This document shows positions 2,454 to 56,600 of a stretch of DNA of 63,541 nt, one piece after another. Each line of letters starts with the position of its first letter. Position 1 is the stretch's first letter. This DNA is from a virus. The position numbers and the translations under genes are program-made. The notes beneath the pieces were generated by a model, which did no database searches, was not told where the DNA came from, and saw only the letters and a list, made by a program, of their open reading frames with translations. The stretch is taken from IMG/VR virus record IMGVR_UViG_3300032322_001418, positions 1-63,541 of that record; one strand, written 5' to 3'.

Positions 2454-3390
2454 TGCTGTTCTCCAGTGTGATGACAGCGTTCTTCTCAATGGCATCGGTG
2501 ACCAGCTTCGGCAGCTTGGTCACGCGACGCATGTCCATGTAGCTCGACGCAGCTACCGTGTACTGCTCGCGGCTGACTTCCTTACGGGTGAAGCAGGAGC
2601 CGTCCGGCAACAGGCCAGCAGACGCCTCGCCCATCAGCATCGCGATGCGGTTCTTGCAGCCCTCGATCACCTTGTCGTACAGCGCACGCTGCTCGCTGGC
2701 ATCGGCCCATACGTCTGCGTACTGCTGGGCGACATCAGGCAGCTTGATGACGCTGCCGTTGGTGCCCGGGTACAGGCGCTTGATCAGCTCGGTGGTCGAG
2801 CGGTGCTCGTAGTGCGGGGTCGGCGGGACGCCGGCCTGCACGCGATCCCAGAATTCGGACTCCGCCTCGATCAGCCGATCGATGATTTCCTGTATCGGGT
2901 GGATCTTGTAGACGCGGAAGTCGCGGTTGCCGATCAGCACGCCGAGGTCAAACTCGTCCCAGCCGGTCACGGCCAGATAGTGCTGAACCTGCGCCATGAC
3001 ATGGGGCGGAACCTCGTTACTGCCGGCCGGACCCCAGCCAAAGCCAAAGGCATCCGACTTCGCCTCGAAGCCCAGCTTGCGGTCAACGCCAACGACTCGC
3101 CGGTCGATGTTGGCGAGCATGAACGGGTACTTGCTTGAGCGGAACGTCTGGTTCTGGCGGATGACCTTGAAGCCGGTCTGGTCGGCGTATGCCTCGCAGA
3201 TCGGATCTTCCAGATACGTGCCCCAACGCAGCGACGCATTGTCAGCGCCGTCGTCTGGCTCGATCTCGCCACGCTTCTCGTGGTACAGGGACAGGATGTC
3301 CCGGTATGGGTTGACGCCGATGATGATGCCGGCATCAGAGCCGCCGATGCCGCTGCGACGCTCGGCGCGCTGTTCTTTGGTGATTGCCAT
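2446..3390 (-). CDS. YqaJ-like (lambda-exonuclease-fold) recombination exonuclease
   Basis: 314 residues from ATG at 3390 (GGAG 9 bases upstream); longer frames run into the tRNA-like element. YqaJ motifs: GIGGSDAGIIIGVNPY (residues 14-29), E61 in LEDPICEAY, D96 in ANIDR, and E109-A-K111 in GFEAKSD, followed by the QVQHYLAVTG helix (134-143). This is the PD-(D/E)XK core that degrades one strand of double-stranded DNA to give the overhang on which RecT anneals. A later region of about residues 200-314 is helical. It is the first protein gene of the leftward early operon. Confidence 0.93.
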   Translation of the reverse strand: MAITKEQRAERRSGIGGSDAGIIIGVNPYRDILSLYHEKRGEIEPDDGADNASLRWGTYLEDPICEAYADQTGFKVIRQNQTFRSSKYPFMLANIDRRVVGVDRKLGFEAKSDAFGFGWGPAGSNEVPPHVMAQVQHYLAVTGWDEFDLGVLIGNRDFRVYKIHPIQEIIDRLIEAESEFWDRVQAGVPPTPHYEHRSTTELIKRLYPGTNGSVIKLPDVAQQYADVWADASEQRALYDKVIEGCKNRIAMLMGEASAGLLPDGSCFTRKEVSREQYTVAASSYMDMRRVTKLPKLVTDAIEKNAVITLENSNG

Positions 3391-3435
3391 TCTCTGCGCT
3401 CCATTGCATGGCCGCCAACCGGCCAGTTGAAAAGA

Positions 3436-3546
3436 TGCCTCAGGGCAGGAGTCGAACCTGCTTCGTGTGGTGACCACCGACCAGATAAGTGAGCCTTTCC
3501 TCCCACCTTCCAGACCAGCCGTTCCGCCGGCCAACATCACCGAGGC
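3436..3546 (-). tRNA. Atypical tRNA-like element (111 nt, isotype not assignable)
   Basis: The 5' GCCTCGG (3546-3540) pairs with the 3' CTGAGGC, extendable by one further T-A pair. Next to it is a perfect T arm: GCAGG, loop TTCGACT, CCTGC. A GCCG/CGGC hairpin occurs in the D-arm position and GTGG/CCAC could be a variable arm. The body between is about 30-35 bases longer than a normal tRNA, and I cannot place a 7-base anticodon loop with U33 and a purine at 37. There is no encoded CCA. It may be a degenerate tRNA, a tRNA with an insertion, or a tRNA mimic at the start of the leftward transcript. Confidence 0.45.
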
Positions 3547-3552
3547 AGGTCA

Positions 3553-3580
3553 ATCCTACACGTTTGTCACTGGATGTCAA
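3553..3580 (-). promoter_or_regulatory. Leftward sigma70-type promoter for the recombination operon
   Basis: On the minus strand TTGACA (3580-3575) is a perfect -35. After 16 bases comes TAGGAT (3558-3553) as -10 (4 of 6). Transcription would begin about where the tRNA-like element begins. The -35 lies inside the 17-bp palindrome described separately. Confidence 0.6.
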
Positions 3581-3590
3581 GCGTTGACAT
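3574..3590. promoter_or_regulatory. Perfect palindrome, candidate operator of the divergent early region
   Basis: ATGTCAA-gcg-TTGACAT is a perfect 7-bp inverted repeat with a 3-base spacer. It contains the leftward -35 and touches the rightward -35, so a dimer bound here would block both. The adjacent Cro/XRE-like protein is the obvious candidate ligand (inference). Confidence 0.6.
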
Positions 3591-3618
3591 AGACGCTGAG
3601 TGAGTGCGGGTGTATTAT
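3590..3618 (+). promoter_or_regulatory. Rightward promoter for the Cro/XRE-like regulator
   Basis: TAGACG (3590-3595, 4 of 6), a 17-base spacer, then TATTAT (3613-3618, 5 of 6). The start point would fall about 30 bases before the regulator's start codon. The -35 shares its first base with the end of the palindrome. Confidence 0.55.
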
Positions 3619-3654
3619 CCTGACTGATCTTTTTTATACCAAAGTGGAGCGATC

Positions 3655-3984
3655 ATGGCATCGAAAAAGAACGGCAAGGCGCGGGTCAGGGTTGCGGCGA
3701 AGGGTGAAGATATTACATATCCAGCCGAGATGATCCCGATCGTGGTCAGGCCGGATTCAAATCCGCCCCACCAGAATCCGATCCGCGCATTCCGCGAGGA
3801 GCTGCGGCTCACGCGCGAGGAGTTTTCCAAGCTGCTTGGCGTGACGGTGATGACCGTCAGGACGTGGGAAACGCCGAACCTCAGCCGCCCCAAGGGCAGC
3901 AAGGCCATCGAGCTGGTCGATCTGGCGCGGCGCAACGCCTATCCACTGACGCTGGACGACATCTATCGCAACCGCGCACTGTGA
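3655..3984 (+). CDS. Cro/XRE-type helix-turn-helix regulator
   Basis: 109 residues; ATG with GGAG 6 bases upstream. The N-terminal 40 residues are basic and extended. Residues 42-75 form an XRE-like HTH (IRAFREELRLTREEFSKLLG, then VTVMTVRTWE), followed by a C-terminal helix region resembling the NadS/HigA type. It is the only gene between the divergent promoters and the helicase operon. By position it should bind the palindrome at 3574-3590 and set the balance between leftward and rightward early transcription, including its own. No partner repressor or integrase was found, so lysogeny is not implied. Confidence 0.82.
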   Translation: MASKKNGKARVRVAAKGEDITYPAEMIPIVVRPDSNPPHQNPIRAFREELRLTREEFSKLLGVTVMTVRTWETPNLSRPKGSKAIELVDLARRNAYPLTLDDIYRNRAL

Positions 3985-3987
3985 TAC

Positions 3988-4016
3988 TTGACGCGGGCGA
4001 TTCCCGGGAGTACAAA
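3988..4016 (+). promoter_or_regulatory. Rightward promoter for the helicase-primase operon
   Basis: TTGACG (3988-3993, 5 of 6), exactly 17 bases, TACAAA (4011-4016, 4 of 6). It begins just after the regulator's stop codon. The transcript would start at the foot of the hairpin at 4021-4051. Confidence 0.5.
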
Positions 4017-4020
4017 AACA

Positions 4021-4051
4021 ACGCCCCTCGCGAGTTTCCTCGGAGGGGCGT
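4021..4051 (+). other. Strong hairpin at the predicted 5' end of the leader
   Basis: ACGCCCCTC pairs fully with GAGGGGCGT; inside, after one bulged G, CGAG pairs with CTCG around a TTTC tetraloop. No U-tract follows, so it is more likely a 5' stabilising or regulatory hairpin than a terminator. Termination of upstream read-through remains possible. Confidence 0.6.
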
Positions 4052-4431
4052 GGTGCTTGACAACCCGCCAAGGTTTCAAGCGCGGTCCGGACGCGGCGGA
4101 CATGGCAATCATGCCACGTCCATCCTTCCCACCGCAAGCTGCGCCCCGCCAGACGCTCCGAAAGGGTCGTCAAGACGCACGTAGTCATGCCCGTCCAATG
4201 TCGGGGCTCGTCAGGAAAGCATTGGTAAGTCGCCGGGAGGTAGCCACCCGGTAGGCGAAAACCCGGGCGCTGTCCGACCCCCTGACAACCCGGTCTCCCA
4301 AGCGGAGAGGCTCATCGAGTATCCCCGGCCAGTGGCCGACAGGCGAGGGTCGAGAGGGCAGCAGGCCCCTCCAGACCCCGACCGGAGGGAGAAAGAGGGG
4401 GCATTATGCCCAGTGGATTTGCGAGGTTGGC
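4052..4431 (+). other. Gene-free structured leader before the helicase
   Basis: About 380 bases with no frame I can support. Open frames here are short, Arg/Pro/Ser-rich and lack good ribosome sites. Several inverted repeats are visible. CGCC/GGCG encloses GGG/CCC near 4222-4254, and TCTCC/GGAGA (4294-4298 with 4304-4308) encloses CAAGC. GC-rich purine runs precede the helicase. It could be a regulatory leader, a non-coding RNA or part of the replication origin. I recognise no known riboswitch or ribozyme consensus. Confidence 0.5.
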
Positions 4432-5979
4432 GTGGACATCAGACCGTATCAGCTTGAGGCTATCGACCAGTGCCGCCGGGCATTCGCGTCCGGGTCGCGG
4501 CGCATCCTGCTGCAGGCACCCACTGGCGCGGGCAAGACTGTCATCGCCGCCCAGATCGTGGAAAGCGCTGCGCGCAAGGGCCGGCGGATCCTGTTCCTCG
4601 CTCACCGCAGGGAGCTGGTCAACCAGTGCGCGGACAAGCTGCGCAGGTTTGGCGTCGATTACGGGATCCTGATGGCTGGCGAGGATCCCAGCTACGAATA
4701 CGAGGTGCAGGTCGCCAGCATCGATACCTTGCGTGTGCGCTGCATGAAGAACCAGCGGCAGCCCATGCCGAAGGCTGACGTGGTGATCATCGATGAAGCG
4801 CACCGCGCGATGTCGCGCACCTATCAGCAGGTCATCGAGTACTACGTCAAGGAACACAACGCTGCGGTGCTTGGCATGACTGCCACCCCGATCCGCAGTG
4901 ATGGTCGAGGGCTGGGCTCGACCTTCGAGAGCATGGTGCGGTGCCCGTCCATCCGCGAGTTGACCAAGGCTGGATACCTAGTCCCGGTGCAGTACTACGC
5001 GCCGACGATCCCTGACCTGACCGGGATCAAGATCGTGCGCGGCGACTACGACGAGCGCGAGCTTGAGAAGGCCATGGATCAGCGCAAGGCTGTGGGCGAC
5101 ATCGTGGAGAACTGGGTACGCGTTGCGAGTGATCGGCCTACCATCGTGTTCGCGACCAGCGTCAAGCACTCGATGCACATCCGTGACGAGTTTGTCAGGG
5201 CTGGCTTCAGGGCTGCGCACATCGATGGCACGATGGGGCTGGCGGATCGTGATGAGGTGCTGCGCGGCTTGGCCAGCGACAAGTACCAGATCGTGACCAA
5301 CTGCATGGTGCTGACAGAGGGCTTCGATGACCCGAAGCTCAGCTGCTGCGTGCTGGCGCGGCCGACCAAGAACCCCGGGCTGTACCTGCAGATGGCTGGA
5401 AGGACGCTGCGTCCTAGCCCCGGCAAGAGCGACTGCATCCTGCTGGATCACAGCGGCAACGTGTACGAGCACGGCTTCGTGGCAGACGATCGAAGCTGGG
5501 AGCTGTCGGAGGGCAAGGCTGCGAATAACGGCAAGGCCAAGCAGCGCCCGGCTGAGCGCAGGCCGATCACTTGCGTCAAGTGCGCGCACGTGTACGAGGG
5601 ACAGCTGCGTTGCCCGAGGTGCAGGCACCTTCCGGAGCGCAAGGGCAAGTACGTCGATACCCGGCATGCGGACCTGAACAGGATCGCCGAGGAGGAGCGG
5701 CGGAGCGCCAAGAAAAAGGTGTTCACTCAGGAGGACAAGCAGCGCTGGTATAGCATGCTCACCGACTACGCACTAAGGTACAATAAAAAGCAGGGCTGGG
5801 TTGCCCACGCTTACCGTGACAAGTTTGGCGTATGGCCGCGCGACATGCTGCCATGGCCAGTCGAGGCTGACGCGGAAGTGAAGGCATTCATCCGGCACAA
5901 GCAGATAAGGTTTGCAAAATCACAGAGGAGGCACACACATGCGGCACCAGACGGCAACGCGCCAGTCGGCGCAGGGTAA
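4432..5979 (+). CDS. Superfamily 2 DEAH-box helicase with zinc motif
   Basis: 515 residues; GTG start with GAGG 9 bases upstream. RecA-like domain 1 has Walker A APTGAGKT (29-36), DEAH (121-124) and TAT (150-152). Domain 2 ends in motif VI QMAGRTLR (320-327). A four-cysteine cluster (C381, C384, C394, C397) follows, as in RadD/SSL2-like phage helicases. The C-terminal 100 residues include a conserved-looking helical tail, as in bacterial RadD. It should unwind or remodel branched or forked DNA using ATP. The last 41 bases overlap the primase gene, so the two are coupled; it is probably the replicative or recombination helicase. Confidence 0.93.
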   Translation: MDIRPYQLEAIDQCRRAFASGSRRILLQAPTGAGKTVIAAQIVESAARKGRRILFLAHRRELVNQCADKLRRFGVDYGILMAGEDPSYEYEVQVASIDTLRVRCMKNQRQPMPKADVVIIDEAHRAMSRTYQQVIEYYVKEHNAAVLGMTATPIRSDGRGLGSTFESMVRCPSIRELTKAGYLVPVQYYAPTIPDLTGIKIVRGDYDERELEKAMDQRKAVGDIVENWVRVASDRPTIVFATSVKHSMHIRDEFVRAGFRAAHIDGTMGLADRDEVLRGLASDKYQIVTNCMVLTEGFDDPKLSCCVLARPTKNPGLYLQMAGRTLRPSPGKSDCILLDHSGNVYEHGFVADDRSWELSEGKAANNGKAKQRPAERRPITCVKCAHVYEGQLRCPRCRHLPERKGKYVDTRHADLNRIAEEERRSAKKKVFTQEDKQRWYSMLTDYALRYNKKQGWVAHAYRDKFGVWPRDMLPWPVEADAEVKAFIRHKQIRFAKSQRRHTHAAPDGNAPVGAG

Positions 5980-20411: not shown

Positions 20412-21146
20412 GTGAGCAAGCCCTCGTTGATCGTTCAGGATTTCGCTGGAGCGCACAATGCGGACGTGGGCAAGACGGCCGCTCGCCTGATCAAGGGAGG
20501 CTCGTGGAAAAAGCAGCGCACGGTGGTGATCCTGCCGTCTGCGGCGCTGATCCCGGCCAAGGTAGCGCTGTCGCACTGGAACCTCGCGTTCTCGCCCAAC
20601 AATGGCGTGGTGCGGATCCTTGCGCAGGGCATGGAGGTTGGGGATGCGTACTCGACCGCGATCCAGCAGGTCATCGAGCATCCAGAGCTGGGCGACTGGG
20701 AGTACATCCTGACCATCGAGGCGGACAACTGCCCGCCCTCGGATGGGTTCCTCAAGCTGGTCGAGCGGATGGAGGCGCACCCGGAATTCGCCTGCATCGG
20801 TGGCCTGTACTTCACCAAGGGCGAGGGCGGCGTGGCGCAGATCTGGGGTGATCCCAAGGATCCGGTGCTCAACTTCAGGCCGCAGCCGCCGGATCCGAAT
20901 GGCGGGCTGGTCGAGTGCTGCGGCACCGGCATGGGCTTCAACCTGTTCCGCATGTCGATGTTCAAGGACTCGCGGCTGCGCCGCCCATGGTTTGTCACCC
21001 AGACCGCTGGCGGGATGTCCACGCAGGACTTGTACTTCTGGGGTGACGCGCGCAAGTACGGCTACCGCTGCGCGATCGACTGCAGCGTCAAGGTAGGGCA
21101 CTACGACATGGAGGGGAAGTTCGGCCCGCCGGACTTCATGTGGTAG
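20412..21146 (+). CDS. GT-A type glycosyltransferase-like protein
   Basis: 244 residues; GTG start. Rossmann-like order with ILTIEADNCPPSDGFLKL around residues 99-116, where E103-A-D105 replaces the usual DxD sugar-nucleotide metal motif. A later segment ends in CAIDCSVKVGHYD, with a His resembling the third metal ligand of GT-A enzymes. The phage could glycosylate its own fibre or DNA, or host surface sugars. It is immediately downstream of the fibre, which favours fibre modification. Confidence 0.68.
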   Translation: MSKPSLIVQDFAGAHNADVGKTAARLIKGGSWKKQRTVVILPSAALIPAKVALSHWNLAFSPNNGVVRILAQGMEVGDAYSTAIQQVIEHPELGDWEYILTIEADNCPPSDGFLKLVERMEAHPEFACIGGLYFTKGEGGVAQIWGDPKDPVLNFRPQPPDPNGGLVECCGTGMGFNLFRMSMFKDSRLRRPWFVTQTAGGMSTQDLYFWGDARKYGYRCAIDCSVKVGHYDMEGKFGPPDFMW

Positions 21147-21149
21147 CCA

Positions 21150-21860
21150 ATGGCGCTTGAGCTGCTTGCCACCAACAGGTCTAGTGGCGTTCCGCATGGA
21201 ACGTCCAACTATACGACCAGCTCCATCACTGGAAACGGCAAGCAGCGGACTCTGTTCTTTGCTGGATCCATGGCAGTCCATGCGTCGAGGGCTGGTCTTG
21301 CTGCTACTGACCTGACCATCTCCGATTCGCTGGGCATGTCGTGGACATCGCGACGCGAGCTGACCGTTGGCTCTGGCGCTGCGGCAATCCGTGTCTGGTC
21401 AGCGCTGCATCTGCCGGCTTTGGCTGATTTCACCATCACGCTGGGCTCTGGCGGCAAGGATATTCAGGCTTACCGACTTGGTTTGTGGGCTGTGTATGGC
21501 GCTGCAGACTCGCCAATTGGTGGGGTTGGGTCAAACTCGAATTCTGGAGATGGCAGCCTGTCGGTCACTCTCGACCAGACTCCATTCAACAACTCGCGCG
21601 CCCTGCACTGGATAGTGAATGCGCTGAGTGCTGGATCGCCAATCATCGTAGCTGGCTCGGATACTGCGCTATCCGCCACGTCAGTTGTTGCCGACTACAT
21701 GATCCACGGATTCGGTGATAAAACAGACAACAACCATATCAATGGTTTGTTTTATAGTGATGTACTCAGTGGCACCGGAACGTCACTTGGATGCGGTGCC
21801 GTTGGGATTGAGGTACGTGAGTTGATGGCTGGATACGCACCCGTCTGGCTGCGTCAGTGA
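21150..21860 (+). CDS. Beta-rich virion-like protein, unknown function
   Basis: 236 residues. Strand/turn-rich with many Ser, Thr and Gly (DLTISDSLGMSWTSRRELTV, then IVAGSDTALSATSVVADYM), like phage tail or fibre-associated proteins. It lies between a glycosyltransferase and a sugar dehydratase. It may be an accessory fibre or a substrate of the glycan enzymes. No catalytic motif was seen. Confidence 0.6.
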   Translation: MALELLATNRSSGVPHGTSNYTTSSITGNGKQRTLFFAGSMAVHASRAGLAATDLTISDSLGMSWTSRRELTVGSGAAAIRVWSALHLPALADFTITLGSGGKDIQAYRLGLWAVYGAADSPIGGVGSNSNSGDGSLSVTLDQTPFNNSRALHWIVNALSAGSPIIVAGSDTALSATSVVADYMIHGFGDKTDNNHINGLFYSDVLSGTGTSLGCGAVGIEVRELMAGYAPVWLRQ

Positions 21861-21876
21861 CAAGGGGGAATCAGAG

Positions 21877-22923
21877 ATGTCCAATCACCGATTGAGTAAC
21901 GTCAAGCGGATCCTGCTGACTGGCGGGGCCGGCTTCATTGGCAGCCACGTGCTGCAGCAGATGGTCGAGACCTGCCCGCAGTGGCACTTTGTGGTGATCG
22001 ACCGGCTTGATTCGTCGGGCAACCTCAACAGGCTGGCTGAGCTGAACCTGCCGATGGACCGGGTGAAGTTCATCTACCACGACCTAAAGTCGCCGATCAC
22101 TGGGCAGCTGGCTTACCAGATCGGCCATATCGACAGCATCATGCACCTAGCTGCTGCGACGCACGTCGATCGGTCCATCGAGGATCCGATGTCGTTCGTC
22201 ATGGACAACGTGGTGGCGACGTGCAGCCTGCTGAATTACGCGCGCACGCTGCCGTACCTCCAGTCGTTCCTGTACTTCAGCACTGACGAGGTGTTCGGTC
22301 CTGCGCCTGAGGGTGTGGCTTACCGTGAGTGGGATCGCTACAAGTCTGGCAATCCGTATGCCGCGACCAAGGCTGGCGGCGAGGAGCTGGCGCTGGCATT
22401 CCACAACACCTACAAGCTGCCGGTGATCATCACGCACACCATGAACGTGGTTGGCACGATGCAGCACCCGGAGAAGTTCGTGCCGATGACGATCTCCAAG
22501 GTCCGCGACTCGCGGACGGTGACGATCCATTCTGACAAGACCCGGACAAAGGCTGGCAGCCGGCACTACATCTCGGTCAGGGATGTGGCCGGTGCGCTGA
22601 TCTTCCTGATGTCGGCCAGCGATGGCTTCAGGGAATTCGGCGGCAAGTACAACATTGTCGGCGTCAAGGAAATCAACAACCTGCAGATGGCGCGGATGAT
22701 CGCGACGGCGATGAACAAGCCGCTGGACTACGAGATGGTGGACTTCCATTCGAGCCGCCCCGGCCATGACCTGCGCTATGCGCTGGACGGGTCGCTGATG
22801 GCGAGCCTTGGCTGGCGTCCGTCGATCGACATCTACGACGAGATCAAGCACATCGTGGACTGGAGCCTGAAGAACGACCACTGGCTGTCGCCGCCGCAGC
22901 CGCGCCTGAGGGTGACCGCATGA
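21877..22923 (+). CDS. NAD-dependent sugar epimerase/4,6-dehydratase
   Basis: 348 residues; ATG with GGGGGA upstream. Short-chain dehydrogenase fold: GGAGFIG (16-22) binds NAD; STDEVFG (135-141) matches the T-D-E triad of RmlB-type dTDP-glucose 4,6-dehydratases; catalytic Y161-x3-K165. The C-terminal RPGHDLRYALDGS motif is also typical of RmlB. It probably converts an NDP-hexose to a 4-keto-6-deoxy sugar, supplying the neighbouring glycosyltransferase. The stop overlaps the methyltransferase start. Confidence 0.9.
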   Translation: MSNHRLSNVKRILLTGGAGFIGSHVLQQMVETCPQWHFVVIDRLDSSGNLNRLAELNLPMDRVKFIYHDLKSPITGQLAYQIGHIDSIMHLAAATHVDRSIEDPMSFVMDNVVATCSLLNYARTLPYLQSFLYFSTDEVFGPAPEGVAYREWDRYKSGNPYAATKAGGEELALAFHNTYKLPVIITHTMNVVGTMQHPEKFVPMTISKVRDSRTVTIHSDKTRTKAGSRHYISVRDVAGALIFLMSASDGFREFGGKYNIVGVKEINNLQMARMIATAMNKPLDYEMVDFHSSRPGHDLRYALDGSLMASLGWRPSIDIYDEIKHIVDWSLKNDHWLSPPQPRLRVTA

Positions 22924-23462
22924 ACGACGTGGTTCAGCAGCCGCTGCGGATCGACCTTGGTGCCGGCCCCAACAAGCGAGAAGGCTTCGTCGGCGTGGAC
23001 ATCAGGCCTGCCACCGGCGTGGACATCGTGACCGACCTGCGCGAGCGGTGGCCCTTCGATGACGACTCCGTGGACGAGGCCAATGCGCACCACGTGATCG
23101 AGCACTTCGACGCCGCTGGCAGGATTCACTTCGTCAACGAGCTGTACCGGGTATTGAAGCCCGGGGCCAGCTGCCAGATCGTAGCGCCGCACTGGGCGTC
23201 GTGCCGTGCCTATGGTGACCTGACTCACCAGTGGCCTCCGGTGAGTGAGTTCTGGTTCTACTACCTGTCTGCTGATTGGCGCAAGGCCAATGCGCCGCAC
23301 AACGACGGCTATCGGTGCAACTTCGCGGCGACGTGGGGCTATGCAATGCACCCGTCGCTCAACGCGCGGAATCAGGAATACCAGCAGCACGCCCTGCAAT
23401 TCTGGAAGGAAGCAGCTCAAGACATCATCGCCAACCTCAAGAAAGAGCCCATGCCACCGTGA
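22920..23462 (+). CDS. Class I SAM-dependent methyltransferase
   Basis: 180 residues; ATGA overlap with the dehydratase. Motif I is IDLGAGPNK (11-19); acidic D27 in GVDI likely contacts the SAM ribose; HHVIEHF near residue 58 and ELYRVLKPGASCQIV near 74 are motifs of the Methyltransf_11 type. The target cannot be read; a sugar or a small molecule in the same glycan pathway is the best guess from context. The end overlaps the TerL start (GTGA). Confidence 0.85.
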   Translation: MNDVVQQPLRIDLGAGPNKREGFVGVDIRPATGVDIVTDLRERWPFDDDSVDEANAHHVIEHFDAAGRIHFVNELYRVLKPGASCQIVAPHWASCRAYGDLTHQWPPVSEFWFYYLSADWRKANAPHNDGYRCNFAATWGYAMHPSLNARNQEYQQHALQFWKEAAQDIIANLKKEPMPP

Positions 23463-47645: not shown

Positions 47646-50600
47646 ATGGCCACCGACCCGAAGGCGCTTGAGCAGGAACTGGATCTCGCCTACCAGAAGT
47701 TCAGCAAGGCCCATGAAGCTGGAGATCGCGAGAACGCCAAGCGCTTCAGGGACTATGCCTTGGAACTGGAGAAGGCGATCGAGGAATCTCGACGCCAGCC
47801 TGCAGCGCCTCAGGAGTCCGGTATCGAGGTAGACGAGGCCGCGCCGAAGGCTGCGCCAAAGCCGTATACCCCGCCAAAGGCCGAGGCCCAGCAGCCTGCC
47901 GACACCGGCATTGACTGGGGCGAGGACATCCCCCCGCCGGCGCGGCGTGATGGCACGCCGATCCTGATTCCGCCCGGCTCCACCAAGCCGACCCAGAAAA
48001 CCGAGATCGAGGGCGGCGACCTGTGGACCGCCATCAAGTACTCGGCAACGTCCCGCGTCTCGAACTATCTGTCGGCTCGCGAGAACATTCGCCGCCGCCG
48101 CAACCTGACGACCTCGCTGGTGGCGCGCGAGCTGCCAGAGGAATGGCGCACTGAGATCGAGTCGTCTGCTGACAAGCCCATCAAGTCGATGACTTTCATG
48201 GAGCTTGATATTCGCGCTCGCCGCCGCTATGGCGACAAGTACGATGAAGTCCTCGGCAGGCTGAAGGAAAACCCCTCCGTAGCCTCGATGATTGACGAGG
48301 CCAAGACCGACTCCGGGGTCAACCTGTACGAGTCGATCATCAGGCCGGCATTCAGTCCGTCCGACGAGTTTTCTGTTGCCGATGTCTGGAAGGAAAAGCT
48401 GGACAGCACGGTCAAGCAGTACAGCGAGTCTGCGCAGCAAGGCAGGGAAAAGCCGTTCCTCAACCCAGAGGCGACCATTGAGCCCGGCACTTGGTTCGAG
48501 GGGACCAAGATGCCTTGGGAAGATCTCGACGCGTTTGTGCTATCTGCTGCTGAGAACTCGGTGCAGATCGGCGAGGGTATTGCTGCCGCTGCCGTTGGTG
48601 GCAAGGCTGCCGGGCCGATCGTGTCGCGTCTGGTTGGAAGGACTGCCACGCCTCAGGCCTTGAGGGCGGCCACCGACAAGGTTGCCGGCCGCCTCGGCAT
48701 GGCCGCCGGCGCGACCTCCGAAGCCTACTCGGTCAAGGATCAGGTCGAGGCAGAGACGTTCCAGCGCCTTCAGTCGCTGCCTGACGAAAAGTGGCAGACG
48801 GACGAGGAATACCACCGTCTCCGCGATGGCGGCCTCACTGATGAGGAGGCTCGCTTTGTGCGGTCGCAGGAGCTGTCTGCCACTGCCGGAAACGTCGCTG
48901 GTGTCGTGTCTGGCTTGGCCCTTGGCGCTCCCATGGGCTACCTGTACGGCAAGCTGGCTGGCCGGCAAAGCGCCGCTCTTGGCTCGCGGGAGATGGTATC
49001 TGCACTATCGCGCAGCACGCTTGGCGCTGCCAAGGGTTTCGCTGGAGAGGCCGCGCAGGAAGGCACTCAGGAATTCACGGAAAACACCATCGGCAATGTT
49101 GCCGTCAGGATGGTTGATCAGGAGCAGCAGATCTTTGCTGGCGGCTTGAACGCATTCCTTGGCGGTGCCGCCATGGGTGGTGCGTATGGCCTTGCTGGCG
49201 GCGCGCTGTCTGCCGCAACCGGCGTGCCCGGCATCGACAAGGAAACTCAGAAAATCCTCGACGCATCGCGCGCGTGGGAGTCTGCAGCCAAGGCGCGCTG
49301 GAAGTTGCAGGCGGAAATTGGCGACCCCAACTGGGGCACCGACATGCTGCCCGGCGAACGCCTGAGAAAGATGGTCGATCTGGAAAACCTCCAGATGGAG
49401 GAGGCCGAGGCATTCAATGGCGTTGAGCCGCTGCTGCGCAAGCAGATGACCGCCAACAACGCTGGCGAGGCTGAGTTTGCGGCACTTGACCGCATGGCAG
49501 CCAGCGCCAAGGCGACCATCGATAGGGTCAAGCAGTCGCGTGAGTCACGCGAGGAATCGCAGCGCGCCGCTGAGGAACAGCGGAAGGTTGATGCCGAGCG
49601 TGAGCAGATCCGCGTCAAGATCGAGCTTGACCAGATGAAGCTGGCGGATGTTGAGCGCATGGCCGACAACATCCACAAGGTTCGCTCCATGCAGGCGCTG
49701 GAGCAGGCAGATTACGAGGAGCTTCAGAGAGAAGGCTACGGTCGGTGGAACGTCAAGGGTGACAAGTTCATCATCACGCCAAAGGGTGTGCGTGCTGCCG
49801 GCGAGCTTGAGCGTCAGGCCGAGCTGCTGAACCAGCGTCTCCAGTCTGGCTACACCGGACCTGAGCGGCGCGCAAACCTGCAGCTGCGCGAGCGCATCAA
49901 GGCGATGAGCCCCGAGCAGCTTGAAGCTGCCGTCTATCTCACCGACAAGACAAACCTGCTGAACAGGCGCGCGTTTGACGAGGCTGAGAAGGACAATCCG
50001 TCTCCTGCTTATGCAGAGATCGACGCAGACTCGGTTGCGTGGGTCAATGACAACTGGGGTCACGAGTATGGCGACAAGCTGTTGTCTGCCATTGCTGATG
50101 CTGTTAGGGAAGAAACAAAAGACCTAGATGGAGTCGCCGCGTACCACAAGAGCGGAGATGAATTTGCCATCACTGGTACGTCGGAGGAGCAGCTTGAGGA
50201 GATCATGCAGCGTGTCAAGACACGCCTGCAGGGTAGCCCGATTGTCAACGGAAAAGAGTCCGTCCTGCCGACAGTAACGTGGGGCACAGGCCCCACCAGC
50301 GTCGATGCAGACAAGACGATGCTGGAACGCAAGAAGGAACGCACCGCTGCCGGAAAGAGGGCTGATCGCAAGGCGCGTCCTGCTACATGGCAATCATCTT
50401 CATTGCTGCTGATGACTGGCGGAGAGGATGTCGATGCCGAGCCTGCTGGTGAGCATGGCAAGGCACAGTTGTCCATGCTGGACGTTGGCTATGGGTATGG
50501 CTTCAGTGGCGGCGAAGGCATGCGTTTTGGGCCAGCGAGGGCAGATGCGCTGGCTATTCCTGCTGAGTTTGCCGAGCTTGTTGGCGATCCCAGCAACCTG

Positions 50601-53600
50601 TCGTTTGTCCGTGATGGCAATGGCCACGAGGCTATCAGCGGTGCTGATGCCAAGCGAATCATCGAGGCGATCGCAGAAAAGCACGGCATCGAAACGCCGT
50701 CGTCTGTAGCTACTGCTTTGTCTCGCTCTCAGGTTCCGTTGCTTGAGGCTGGAATTCGCGTGCTTGGCAGGGAGATTGACCTGTCTGCAGGAACGGTGCG
50801 CTCCATCATTGATGGTGACGCCAAGACGGTCGCCCTAGACACGATGAACAAGATCCTTGCTGGGTTCCGCGTTGCGGTCAGCAAGTCCAGCCCCGGAATG
50901 TACAACGCCGACAGTGAGCAGGCAGCACTGCCCGCTGCATGGGCGTCCAAGATCACGCTGGTAAAGCCGTCGCTGCCAAAGCAGAAGGCTATTCGAGAAA
51001 CCCCGAGGTTTGCCGCAGGCTCTCAGCAGCCGTTTGATTTCGACTTCAAGCCGCGCTACACGACAAGGGCCAAAAGGGCGTCGAGGAAGCACATGCGCCG
51101 GGCTGAGGCGGCCATGGCTGCTGTGTTTGGTCAGTACAAGAACCTTCCGACAGTCACCTTGGTAAACACGGTCGATGATCTGCCAAGCGGCGTGCTTGCA
51201 GACTTGCGCGCCATGGGCGGCAATCCCTATGGCGTGCGCGGCATGTTCGATGAAAAGAATCCTGCCAATGGCGTGTTCATCGTTGTCGCCAACAATCTCA
51301 ACGTCTTGTCTCGTGATCTGAAAAAGCCGGTGTCGTCAATCAAGCCGTCCGAGCTTGAGGGGGCGATCATCGAGACCGCGTTCCATGAAATCGTTGGTCA
51401 CTATGGCCTTCGTGGCTTGGTAGGCAGTCAGGAGAATCTTGATCGTCTTGCTGAGCTGATCGTCAAGTCGTTCCCGCGCGAGGCCACTGCTACTGCGTTG
51501 CGCATCGGTGCAAACATGGCCTTGCCACGCCATCGAGCGCTCGTTGGCGAGGAGACGTTCGCATATCTTGCCGGCGAGATTTTGGCCAAGCGAATCACGC
51601 TTGATCCGAAAGAGCGCACCTTGTTCAGGCGAGCCATCAACTGGGTCAAGACGCTGCTGCGCAAGCTCAAGTTTGATCGGTTCCTGAAGATGACCGATCG
51701 GGACATGATGGCGCTGATTGCCGAGGCGCAGATCTTCGTCAAGTCTGGGAACAAGTGGAAGTTCCAGACCATGAACGGAGAGACGTTGACGCCTTACATG
51801 CGCAACATGGAGATGTTCAAGAACGGAATGCTGAAGGCTGTCCAAGAGGGGACCAAGCCGCTCAACAAGAATGAGCGCGCGGCGCTGGCTGCCAAGGATC
51901 CGGCCATGGCCGGCGTTAAGGAAATGCCGCTGTTCCCAGAGACTGGCACCGTTTCCGCGTACATCGCCGCAGTCGAGTATGCGATGGCAAAACTCGGCTA
52001 TGTCAGCAAGACCGAGCTGACCGCATCTGGAATCATGGAAATGCTGCGTCCGCCGCTGCTGCGGAAGCTGGCATTTGATGTCCATCCTGAGACTCTAGAT
52101 GAAAATGGTCGCGGCCTTACCGATCAGCAATTCGCTGCGCATTTTGGCGTGCCGCTTGAAGATCTTGACGAGTTCTTGCTGTCAAATTCCTTGACAGAGG
52201 AGCAGGTTGCAAAGGCACAAGAGCTTGTCGAGCGGTTCGACCTAGATCGTGACATCTACTCGTCAGAAAGACTTGCGGCCAACAATGGTCTGAATGCCCA
52301 GCAGCTGCGCAGCTATGTCGATGGCGGCATCGATGAGCAAATCAAGCTGTTGCCTCCGCGCGTACGCCCAAAGGTTGAGGAGCTGCTTAATATCCGCTCG
52401 CAAGCGATGAGCAGCAGGGATGATCAGTACATCAATGCAACTCTTGAAATCGATAAACTTTTCAGGGCACCAGCTGACCCGAAGACGACGGTCATCAACA
52501 AAAAGATGATCTTGAAGTGGCTCACTGATGCCTTTGCGCACGTCGAAATTTTCCCGTGGTCTATCGCTGATGTAGACCCAACGGATGCTCAGGCTGTAAA
52601 GCTGGCCTACACAAGGATCACCGGGCAGCGCCCGTTGCTACCCGGCTATGCGCACGACCAGCTCAACGACAATGCGCCTTGGACTGCTGGCGATGCGCAG
52701 TCATTCCTGATGGGGCTTGATGAGGAATTGCGCGAGAGGGTCATCGCCGAGATGGCTGCCATCAAGGCAAAGGGATATGACTACGGATTTGATCCTCAGC
52801 TGAACCGCTGGTTTGATTGGGTGCAGCCAAACAAGCAGCACGAGCATAGCCGCTACACCCCTGCCGGGCTGTCCACCGAGGAATACATGACTGTCGCCTT
52901 GTACGACAAGTCAGCGATGAAAGTCCGCTCTGAAAGCATCAGGCATGGCCACTATTCTGGGTCTGCTTGGCCGCGCGGGAATGTAGGTGTGCTGTTCCAC
53001 ATCAGGCAGAGCGTGGTCAATGATGCGTCCAAGAATCCGCCTACCGCTCCAAACAGCAAGTATCAGGGTAAGGCGTGGTATCTGGTTGAGCTGCAAACCG
53101 ACTGGTTTGACAAGCATCGGTCGCTGAATAGCGAGGCTGCCCGCGTTGCTTTGACGGCTCGCACCAGAGAAAAAGGCGACGCCCTGTTCACGTCAATTGG
53201 TGCGTTCACAGACGTTGTTAGCAGGCAGGTATTTGATGCAATGGTCGAAAAGACCAAGAGCATCATTGAATCAGTCTTGCCTGATGCTGAGCAAGACGCT
53301 GATGCGTGGCTCAGCGCTGCGACTGAATCTGTAAAGCAGAACGAAAGCAAGCGTATTGGAGTGCAACCTGAAAACCTCAGGCAGGTGCTGATCGAGCGCA
53401 GGCTAAAGTCTAGGACCAGCGAGCGGCTTTCGATGCTCGCCGGCGAAATTGTCAATTTCATGGGCGATAGAAACACTCTGTTGCACAAGGCAACTTCGTC
53501 TCGCCGCCTGCGCATCACTGCGGACGCCAGAGAAATTGCCCGCGCCAACAACATGGCGGTCAAGGAATTTTTGTGGGGGATGAGCCGCAGGATCGTTACC

Positions 53601-56600
53601 ATCAGGGAGGCCGCGTCGAATGCCAATTGGTATACGTCATGGAATGGCACGGAGCCGGTCTTCAGCGACGAATTTAAGGACATCCTTACGTTTGGCGAGG
53701 TGACAAGGGCGTCTCTATACGACTCTCGCAGCAGCTATTCGAGTCTCAGCGTGCATCAGCATATCGCCAATGCGATTGGAACTAGCCAGCTATCTAGGCT
53801 TGGCTATGCCAAGAAGGAGCTTAGGCGGGAGCTTGAGCTGCTGTATGACAAGCTTGGCATTGATCTGAGCAAGCTCGATCACGCCATGTCTAGCCTGTCA
53901 GAGGCAAAGGTGTATCGCTGGTCAGTGCCACTTGACACGATCCCGGTCATTCTAGACGGCGAAAAGGCGATGCACGCTGGCGCTGATTCGTTCATCAGGT
54001 CAGCCATTGATTACGTACACAAGGTTGACCATCGCTATTCGTCAGAAAACTTCAGGGTGCAAAGCGACGTTGGCAACGCCGACTCAGACGTATCGATCAG
54101 CTATACGGGATTGGTCGCTGAAAGCCTAGATGAAGCCAAGGAAGTGCTGCTAAAGGCCATTGATCACTACGTGTCAAATGAGCTGCCCCAGCTTTTTGAC
54201 GCGTGGGCAGATGAAGTGGTCGTCAATACAACGAGGCAGCGTGAGCGCAATAGGCTCTCAAGCTCAGACGATCAGGAGCTGGCAAAGAAAACCATTCAAT
54301 GGCTTGGCCTTGAGGAAAAAGATACCGACGAATTCAGCAACGTAACCGAATACTCGCTTGGCCACTATGGAATTGTGACCAAGGAAGACTACGTATCAGA
54401 AAGACTCCCGGACGAGATCGACTTCTACCGCGAAAATGGGGAGAACTACATCGACTGGAGCGCAGAAGAATTCGACGATCATCCGCTTGACACCGATCAT
54501 CCGGAGTATCGGAGCCGTGTCGTTGTTGATGCAGATGAAAATGAAGATGCGACCCTAGCAGATGCGTGGCTTGAAGAACGCAGACGCGAGCGGGTCGAGG
54601 AGATGCTTGAGGGAGGCGGCTATCTGTATCAGATGGCAGAGGAAGCTGCTGCGTCAAATTATGAAGATCAGGTCATCTACCATGCGATCCTTCCATCTGG
54701 AATCGTCAACAGGGATCTTGATCCGATCCCGCAGGTAGAGATTGTTCAGGTCAAGAGTCACAGCGGTGACTGGAGCGTCTGGGTTGACGGAGAGTATGTT
54801 GCCGAGGGTTTGTCTCGCGAGCGAGATGCTGACATAAAATTGATGCAGGGTGTGATTGCCTATCTTGAGGACAATCGTGTAATTGCGTGGAAGCCTGAAT
54901 TCCCGTGGAGCCAGCAGGCCCCTGCGCAGCCAGATCCTGTTGATCGCCCTGAAAAGCCTGACTTTACGTCTTACGCAAAGGCCATCGCAGGGGAAATCGA
55001 AAAGAGCGGCGAGGCAACAGTCGTTGACGCTGGCGTCCTATACGAGCAGGTAATCGATGCCGCGAAAATCACCTCGTCCCCGGTGGTGCCAAAGTCTCAC
55101 CTAGCCAAAGACGAGGTGTGGCGGCTTATTGCCCTGCGCTACATCATTGCTGACGCTGTCAGGCGCGGCATTCCGAAAGTCATGTGGCATGGCGGCGAAG
55201 GAACCAGCAAGCGCGGCGGCGGCCTGAGCTTCACGACCGTTGAAAGAATCGTATGGCGCAAGGCGTCAATGGAAGTCAACGGCAAGACCAAGGACGTGGT
55301 TGTCATCGAGACACCGCGATACTCTGGCAATTCAATCATTCTTGAGTTGTCCGCAGACAGGATTGCCCCTGTCCTTGGCCAAGACGTTTATGAACTGATG
55401 ATGCGCCAGATTGCTGGCAAGGCCCCGCTGCGCGCTGGCGAGGCAGATATCAGCGGAACGCCGCAGCTTGATGATCTTGTTATTGGCCGGGCTGGAGAGT
55501 CTTGGGTTTTGCATCGTGTTGGTGATCCATCGATTCTCAGCATTGCCACCACCAGAGAGGAGATTGAGGGCATCCGCAGCCAAATGTTTGCAGATGCTCA
55601 GCGCAATGGCTCGTGGACTGCAGTCTTATCGCAGTCCCCGGTGCAGCGGTCGATCAGCAGTGGTTACGGTGAAAGCCACGAGGAGACCGCTAGGCTAATT
55701 GCGGATTTTGAGGCAAAAGTCCCAAATCTTGGCGTGTCTGAGGCAGACATCTCGATGTCTGGCGAGATCACTGGGGACATGCTTGGTGGTGGTTACATCT
55801 ACCTAGCAACTCACGAAACAGACTCGTTCATGCATACGCCAGCCGGAGCCGATAGCTATGGCGCTCGGCTGATGGGCGCACGAATCAACTATGACGGCAT
55901 GCTCAACAGGATCTGGTCAAAGGAACTGAAGAAGTACGGTGTGCAAATCACATCCGGAGCTGCTGTCGTTCCAAGCTCAATGACCGCTGACGAAGTTAGG
56001 GCTGAAGGCTTGCGAGTCACCAGCAGCTACAGCGATGCATTTGTGCAGCAGTATGGAACGCCAGTGATTGTCAAGATCAGCGGCGAGACATCCGGCTTCG
56101 CTGTTGTCAGTAATGCTGGCCCGATACTCAATAGGGTGTATTGGACCAAGGATGAGGCTGAGCGTGCGCTGAATGAATTCGTGCGCACCAAAAATGCAGA
56201 GTTGCTGTCAACCAAACTGTACGAGTTCACGATCAATGACGCTTTGAGGGAGGCGTTTTCTGGCCCTGTCGTGCCATTCAATTACGATCCGTACAAGGAT
56301 CCTGTACTGAAGGCTGCGGCAGAGCGCATTGGCAGCCGTAAGCCAAGCCTCAGGTCGCGCATCGATGCGTGGCGCAGGACGTGGAAGGACTCGTTCCTGC
56401 AGGGCACGTTCGATCGTTTCCATGGCATCAAGTCGGCAATGACGGACGCAGACCTGCTGAAGGTCGAGGCCGCCCAGAATCCGTACATCCAAGCACGGCT
56501 GTCCACCTCGCTTGATTCCGTGATGACTGCGGTCATGGACTATGGCCACCCGATCTGGAAGGACGGCATCGTCCAGACGGAGGGTCGTGGGCTTGCTGAA

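Follow-up and report, generated by a model that had tools for sequence, protein, structure and literature searches.

A predicted antisense-controlled RNA module ahead of the helicase and primase genes of a tailed phage

The 447-nt gene-free region located ahead of the helicase and primase genes in a tailed phage is suggested to be an antisense-controlled RNA module that controls phage replication, a reading that derives from comparative sequence analysis and to which we assign an even chance of being correct. A sense RNA would start at a hairpin (H1), and an antisense RNA of approximately 80 to 100 nt would cover its 5′ end and stop at the same hairpin. The layout of such a cis-antisense pair, with opposed overlapping promoters and full complementarity between the antisense RNA and the 5′ portion of the sense RNA, is found in eight of eight loci, with a weak leftward promoter in the sequence that is the focus here. 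This sequence (hereafter the window) is the whole stretch of DNA that was analyzed, a virus record of 63,541 bases.

In the window, the SSB, RecT-like, and exonuclease genes run leftward from position 3390, and an HTH regulator gene (3655–3984) follows on the plus strand. On the 3′ side of the gap, a DEAD/ResIII helicase gene begins at the GTG at 4432 and is followed by a Toprim primase gene, after which come the terminase, portal, head, DNA-ejection, and lysis genes. A preliminary description of this DNA had pointed to a gene-free stretch before the helicase, in agreement with our analysis: positions 3985–4431, between the HTH stop codon at 3984 and the helicase start, hold no conserved ORF, and the analogous frames of the relatives are interrupted by stop codons and by frame-shifting indels. 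A protein encoded in the leader was considered and rejected; frames are open in loci L029, L032, and L011, yet L012 has a stop, and the changes track stems, not codons. The helicase Shine–Dalgarno sequence GAGG (4423–4426) and the GTG start (together 4423–4434, plus strand) are partly paired in both predicted folds. Near 4 kb, the cumulative GC skew reaches its lowest value; gene direction switches at the same place, and the skew is therefore uninformative with respect to the origin.

The window has a second large gap (264 nt; 3391–3654). On the minus strand at 3437–3546 there is a 110-nt tRNA-like cloverleaf with a 7-bp acceptor and the T-arm GCAGG TTCGACT CCTGC, positioned at the predicted start of the exonuclease–RecT–SSB operon (promoter TTGACA-16-TAGGAT; 3580–3553). 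It is similar to the tRNA-Gln of the phage itself in the T-arm and at the 3′ end; it scores 25 bits with the Rfam tRNA-Sec model (threshold 47), gives no ARAGORN call, and has an ordinary folding energy (z −1.2). Elsewhere, a cluster at 20412–23459 (plus strand), located between the early and terminase genes, carries a nucleotide-sugar epimerase-like gene (21877–22920) with glycosyltransferase-like and methyltransferase-like neighbors, and a single 3814-aa ORF (47646–59090, plus strand) lies immediately before the endolysin gene.

The closest annotated relatives of the helicase are 38 to 43% identical, and matches to it on plasmids reach approximately 35% identity at most. Integrase and ParA were searched for in the phage records studied here and were not found. 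No DNA polymerase I family gene (PolA) was found in these records, and the host polymerase may therefore be used. In the Pseudomonas phages PS-1 and YA3, the order is CI, Cro, an unannotated gap, helicase, and primase. This gap of approximately 470 to 610 nt (PS-1/YA3; L258 2900–3440, L259 2765–3230) is situated 3′ of the Cro-type regulator genes and 5′ of the helicase region; it includes a 53-nt stretch that is 91% identical between the two phages, and directly ahead of the helicase lies a hairpin resembling a leftward terminator. Neither an Rfam family nor similarity to the window was found in it.

The region has its own promoter, as proposed in the preliminary description, with TTGACG (3988–3993) and TACAAA (4011–4016) separated by 17 nt (predicted sense promoter, 3988–4016, plus strand). 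Its score of 8.9 is reached by 0.7% of Markov shuffles, and a strict promoter scan missed it because the −10 element is without the final T. The start site is expected at the foot of H1 (4021–4051), which has the 13-bp stem described earlier, built from segments of 9 and 4 bp and including a single bulged base. H1 is predicted to form both the 5′ end of the sense RNA and the terminator hairpin of the antisense RNA. It is followed by H2 (GCTTGA...TCAAGC; 4055–4081), whose 5′ arm and loop contain the alpha segment. When the whole region is folded, z is −2.7 on the plus and −2.6 on the minus strand. The structure resides in H1 and H2 (4021–4082; z −5.0/−5.2 relative to shuffles), while the remaining 349 nt (4083–4431) do not deviate significantly from shuffles (z −1.3/−1.05). 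Hence, the folding check bears out the 5′ hairpins and not the rest, and the further nested inverted repeats that had been listed are mostly at chance level for 65% GC.

Read on the minus strand, H1 is followed by a T-run, TTGTTTTTG (4012–4021), seen on the plus strand as an A-run ahead of H1, and it thus resembles an intrinsic terminator that would end a leftward transcript, a feature missed in the preliminary description. The T-run marks the expected 3′ end of the antisense RNA and is T-rich in most relatives. The predicted antisense RNA (4012–4101, minus strand) is approximately 90 nt long, carries H2 and then H1, and is proposed by homology with the seven other loci, in most of which the leftward promoter is clearer. 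In the window, the predicted antisense promoter TTGCGG-18-CATGAT, with a TG upstream (4108–4137, minus strand), is weak (p 0.07). It is located 26 nt from H2, whereas in the seven other loci the −10 element ends 2 to 8 nt from H2. This weak and oddly placed promoter counts against antisense control. The earlier suggestion of a regulatory RNA with its own promoter and 5′ hairpin is nevertheless supported by the sequence, and the comparison adds the predicted antisense RNA.

The relatives were collected from IMG/VR by their helicase and HTH genes and have conserved synteny. The loci of the RNA type are the window, L005/L015, L006, L011, L012, and L155, together with L029 and L032, which were found by a DNA pattern and are both fragments. 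All eight share a common layout with a plus-strand promoter, H1 at its start site, H2 within a few nucleotides, and a leftward promoter. The −10 element of the plus-strand promoter ends 3 to 8 nt before H1 in 8/8 loci (p 0.003–0.06 each). In L029 and L032, the unit adjoins other genes and precedes a T5orf172/MUG113-like ORF (weak match) and terminase genes. The plus-strand promoter is present in these two loci, whose upstream genes differ, and it is therefore not a by-product of the HTH coding sequence. In the H1 and H2 stems, 13 of 14 pairs are changed on both sides with 99% of positions paired (0/500 shuffles), a percentage that is partly circular as the arms were chosen per sequence by folding and some loci are closely related. 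The spacing between the H2 arms varies from 15 to 28 nt across loci, with a stem of 6 to 9 bp, and this variable spacing is more in keeping with an RNA hairpin than with a protein operator.

Searches beyond these loci gave few leads. At the Rfam gathering threshold, the window region has no match, permissive scans of it gave nothing relevant, and the relatives show a few weak matches far below threshold. No close DNA relatives of the window region or of the L029 module were found among annotated phages, or of the L012 module among plasmids, and no extra copies of the L012 module were found in related records. With only the HTH protein of the window as query, a scan returned nothing, and a pattern scan of bacterial genomes returned chance-like matches only, the pattern being too loose.

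To the right of H2, each locus carries a segment (beta) similar in sequence to the antisense strand of the 5′ arm and loop in that locus's own H2. In the window, beta (4157–4177, plus strand; core GGGTCGTCAAGA, 4164–4175) complements the loop and the 5′ arm of H2, so that an alternative pairing is possible. Own beta–H2 pairs outscore mismatched pairs in a permutation test by alignment (p 0.0011) but not significantly by duplex energy (p 0.085). Together with the predicted antisense RNA, this points to a sense RNA that could fold in two ways, with the choice decided by the antisense RNA, a principle shared with antisense-controlled RNAs.

The predicted sense RNA continues with the S region (4083–4431, plus strand), which is without significant structure in the window and lies outside the conserved S domain found elsewhere. 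In L011, L012, L029, and L032, this compact domain spans approximately 150 to 220 nt. Of its 45 predicted pairs, 11 are changed on both sides; TGACC/GGTCA, TGAGC/GCTCA, and AGCC/GGCT, all in a single hairpin, are among them. Where only one side of the long hairpin has changed, the result is G–U on the plus strand and would be A–C on the minus strand, which argues that the plus strand is the RNA. The domain spans two gene contexts among these four loci. A covariance model of it (R1) matches all four strongly and finds nothing convincing in the window, L155, L005, L006, L245, PS-1, or YA3. The window S region was rejected as an R1 member; it has no match with default filters, and with filters off the best hit is 5.1 bits (E 0.3). 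The 5′ unit is thus the constant part, and the downstream part varies. An 18-nt all-purine tract in the window (GGAGGGAGAAAGAGGGGG; 4384–4401, plus strand) is possibly R-loop-prone and is not conserved. Neither an RNase H site, a primosome site, nor an unwinding element was identified. The attenuator considered in the preliminary description is not supported in its classical form, as there is no plus-strand intrinsic terminator between H1 and the helicase (3985–4431).

Among the relatives, the slot between the HTH and helicase genes is occupied in two main ways, by RNA or by protein. The protein type (L001, L002, L004, L009, L013, L016, L153, and others) has an ORF of 122 to 132 aa with direct repeats, often of approximately 10-bp period, and AT-rich repeats upstream. 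Origin-like arrays precede this winged-helix-like ORF at L001 2318–2626, L153 2811–3102, L013 2396–2623, and L009 2456–2611. The structural model of the ORF product is mostly helical (pLDDT 77), with weak fold matches to MarR- and CodY-type winged helices and to viral proteins named replication initiator or replisome organizer; no match was found in Pfam, PHROG, PDB sequences, or annotated phages. That its similarity to initiators is a weak fold similarity only counts against replication control. The ORF is present in 4/4 protein-type records tested and absent from the window, L011, L012, L155, L015, the L245 record, and the fragments L029 and L032. The L245 record has the same HTH gene and a third sort of gap (3200–3620), with a rightward promoter–hairpin–terminator unit and a helicase that does not follow directly; this unit is possibly an inverted module. 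The earlier proposal of a replication origin is supported only indirectly, by this alternation with a winged-helix-like ORF and repeats and by the GC skew minimum, which is confounded by gene direction.

In the model that we favor, RNA polymerase would initiate the sense RNA at the foot of H1 (~4021), and the transcript would run through H2, beta, and the S region toward the helicase and primase genes. The leftward promoter to the right of H2 would give rise to the short antisense RNA, complementary to the first 80 to 100 nt and ending at H1. The sense RNA would adopt one of two folds, with H2 closed on itself or with the H2 5′ arm paired with beta, and binding of the antisense RNA would select the fold and set the amount of productive sense RNA. 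The output would be the start of replication, either via a ColE1-like primer RNA or through activating transcription across an origin.

RNA-based replication origins are classic in plasmids. As in ColE1 RNA II/RNA I, stem-loops would open the predicted sense RNA, an antisense RNA of approximately 100 nt from a promoter inside the region would cover its 5′ end, and the slot codes for no initiator protein; the antisense target may also pair with a segment farther downstream, as in ColE1. Unlike ColE1, there is no sequence similarity (the ColE1 RNA I and RNA II family models have no match in the window region at the Rfam gathering threshold), the hairpins are two instead of three, and a helicase gene follows. 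In phage P4, immunity depends on the CI RNA, and a long untranslated helicase–primase leader with repeated complementary segments lies upstream of the alpha operon. The P4 CI RNA, however, is of the same strand as the leader, whereas the small RNA predicted here is of the opposite strand. In cluster A mycobacteriophages (Alma, LadyBird, RedRock), the protein initiator RepA alternates with a non-coding, RNA-based prophage origin, with ori deletions of approximately 400 to 500 bp (PMC7157519); likewise, the phages here carry either a protein initiator candidate or the predicted RNA module. The cluster A RNA origin lies beside parABS, where it serves the prophage with lytic growth being independent of it, and the sections of that study consulted describe no antisense pair (PMC7157519). 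In contrast, the module here precedes a helicase–primase operon in phages for which ParA and integrase were not found.

The alternative that deserves most weight, tentatively, is that the two RNAs only set translation of, or read-through into, the helicase–primase mRNA, with the origin elsewhere. Antisense control of rep mRNA leaders is established for pT181/pIP501 and IncFII (reviewed in PMC5415839), and the predicted antisense RNA would likewise act against a leader ahead of a replication gene, after the models of CopA/CopT and of pIP501 RNAIII acting on rep genes. Moreover, the window has no other plus-strand promoter ahead of the helicase, the H1 5′ arm is able to pair across the helicase Shine–Dalgarno sequence in the free fold, and the alternative pairing between the S region and H1/H2 exceeds chance in the window (p 0.007). 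This last signal, however, is not significant in the other loci, and in contrast to pT181/pIP501, neither an attenuator terminator nor a conserved leader peptide was found in the region. That the region is a helicase-operon leader, as initially proposed, is further made uncertain by L155, with a strong promoter directly at the helicase ATG, and by L029 and L032, where the module precedes a different gene. Control of replication start is therefore favored over a plain mRNA leader as the most likely output, given the position in front of replication genes, a slot that excludes the winged-helix-like ORF with its origin-like repeats, a unit that also occurs next to other genes, and the separate strong helicase promoter in L155. 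Control of helicase–primase expression would be a close second. The variability of the S region across loci, together with its lack of significant structure in the window, counts against the favored explanation.

It is improbable that function lies solely in the short leftward RNA and its promoter, acting by transcription interference or by terminating transcripts, with the sense RNA having no role of its own. Such a system would resemble lambda OOP/pO, a short leftward RNA between the regulator gene and the replication genes; the place in the lambda-like order is the same (HTH, then replication genes), a parallel that extends to PS-1 and YA3, and the lambda pO promoter influences replication (PMC3985674). 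Yet the plus-strand promoter is found at H1 in 8/8 loci, and the S domain is plus-strand RNA in four. In addition, OOP overlaps cII and is antisense to its 3′ end, whereas the RNA predicted here stops just outside the HTH coding sequence and opposes the 5′ end of a separately promoted RNA; with the terminator falling after the HTH stop at 3984, an OOP-type RNA antisense to the regulator 3′ end was rejected. A very unlikely explanation is that H2 and beta are operator half-sites of the HTH protein and H1 merely a terminator. In most loci, H2 and beta do contain repeated half-sites resembling CTGGT/ACCAG, and divergence between the sequences is greatest where the HTH recognition region diverges (window and L155); the arm spacing and stem length of H2 are nonetheless unlike a dimer operator, and the L029 and L032 fragments are without such an HTH gene. 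We give equally little credence to an ordinary spacer, in which a terminator guards against stray leftward transcription next to GC-rich non-coding DNA. The insignificant structure of the window S region and the absence of a known family or close homolog would suit a spacer, but a two-promoter, two-hairpin layout is kept in eight diverged loci, and the RNA domain is conserved in four of them.

Diverged phages thus appear to replace a putative protein initiator with an RNA pair at one slot, and this exchange offers a natural comparison for the evolution of phage replication modules. A broader proposition, which we hold as doubtful, is that a tailed phage family without a recognizable integrase uses an origin that is RNA-primed and regulated by antisense RNA, instead of a protein initiator, with modules that swap at one slot and an RNA module that also travels to other phage contexts. 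The antisense-controlled module would predict, in a testable way, where and how synthesis of the phage DNA starts.
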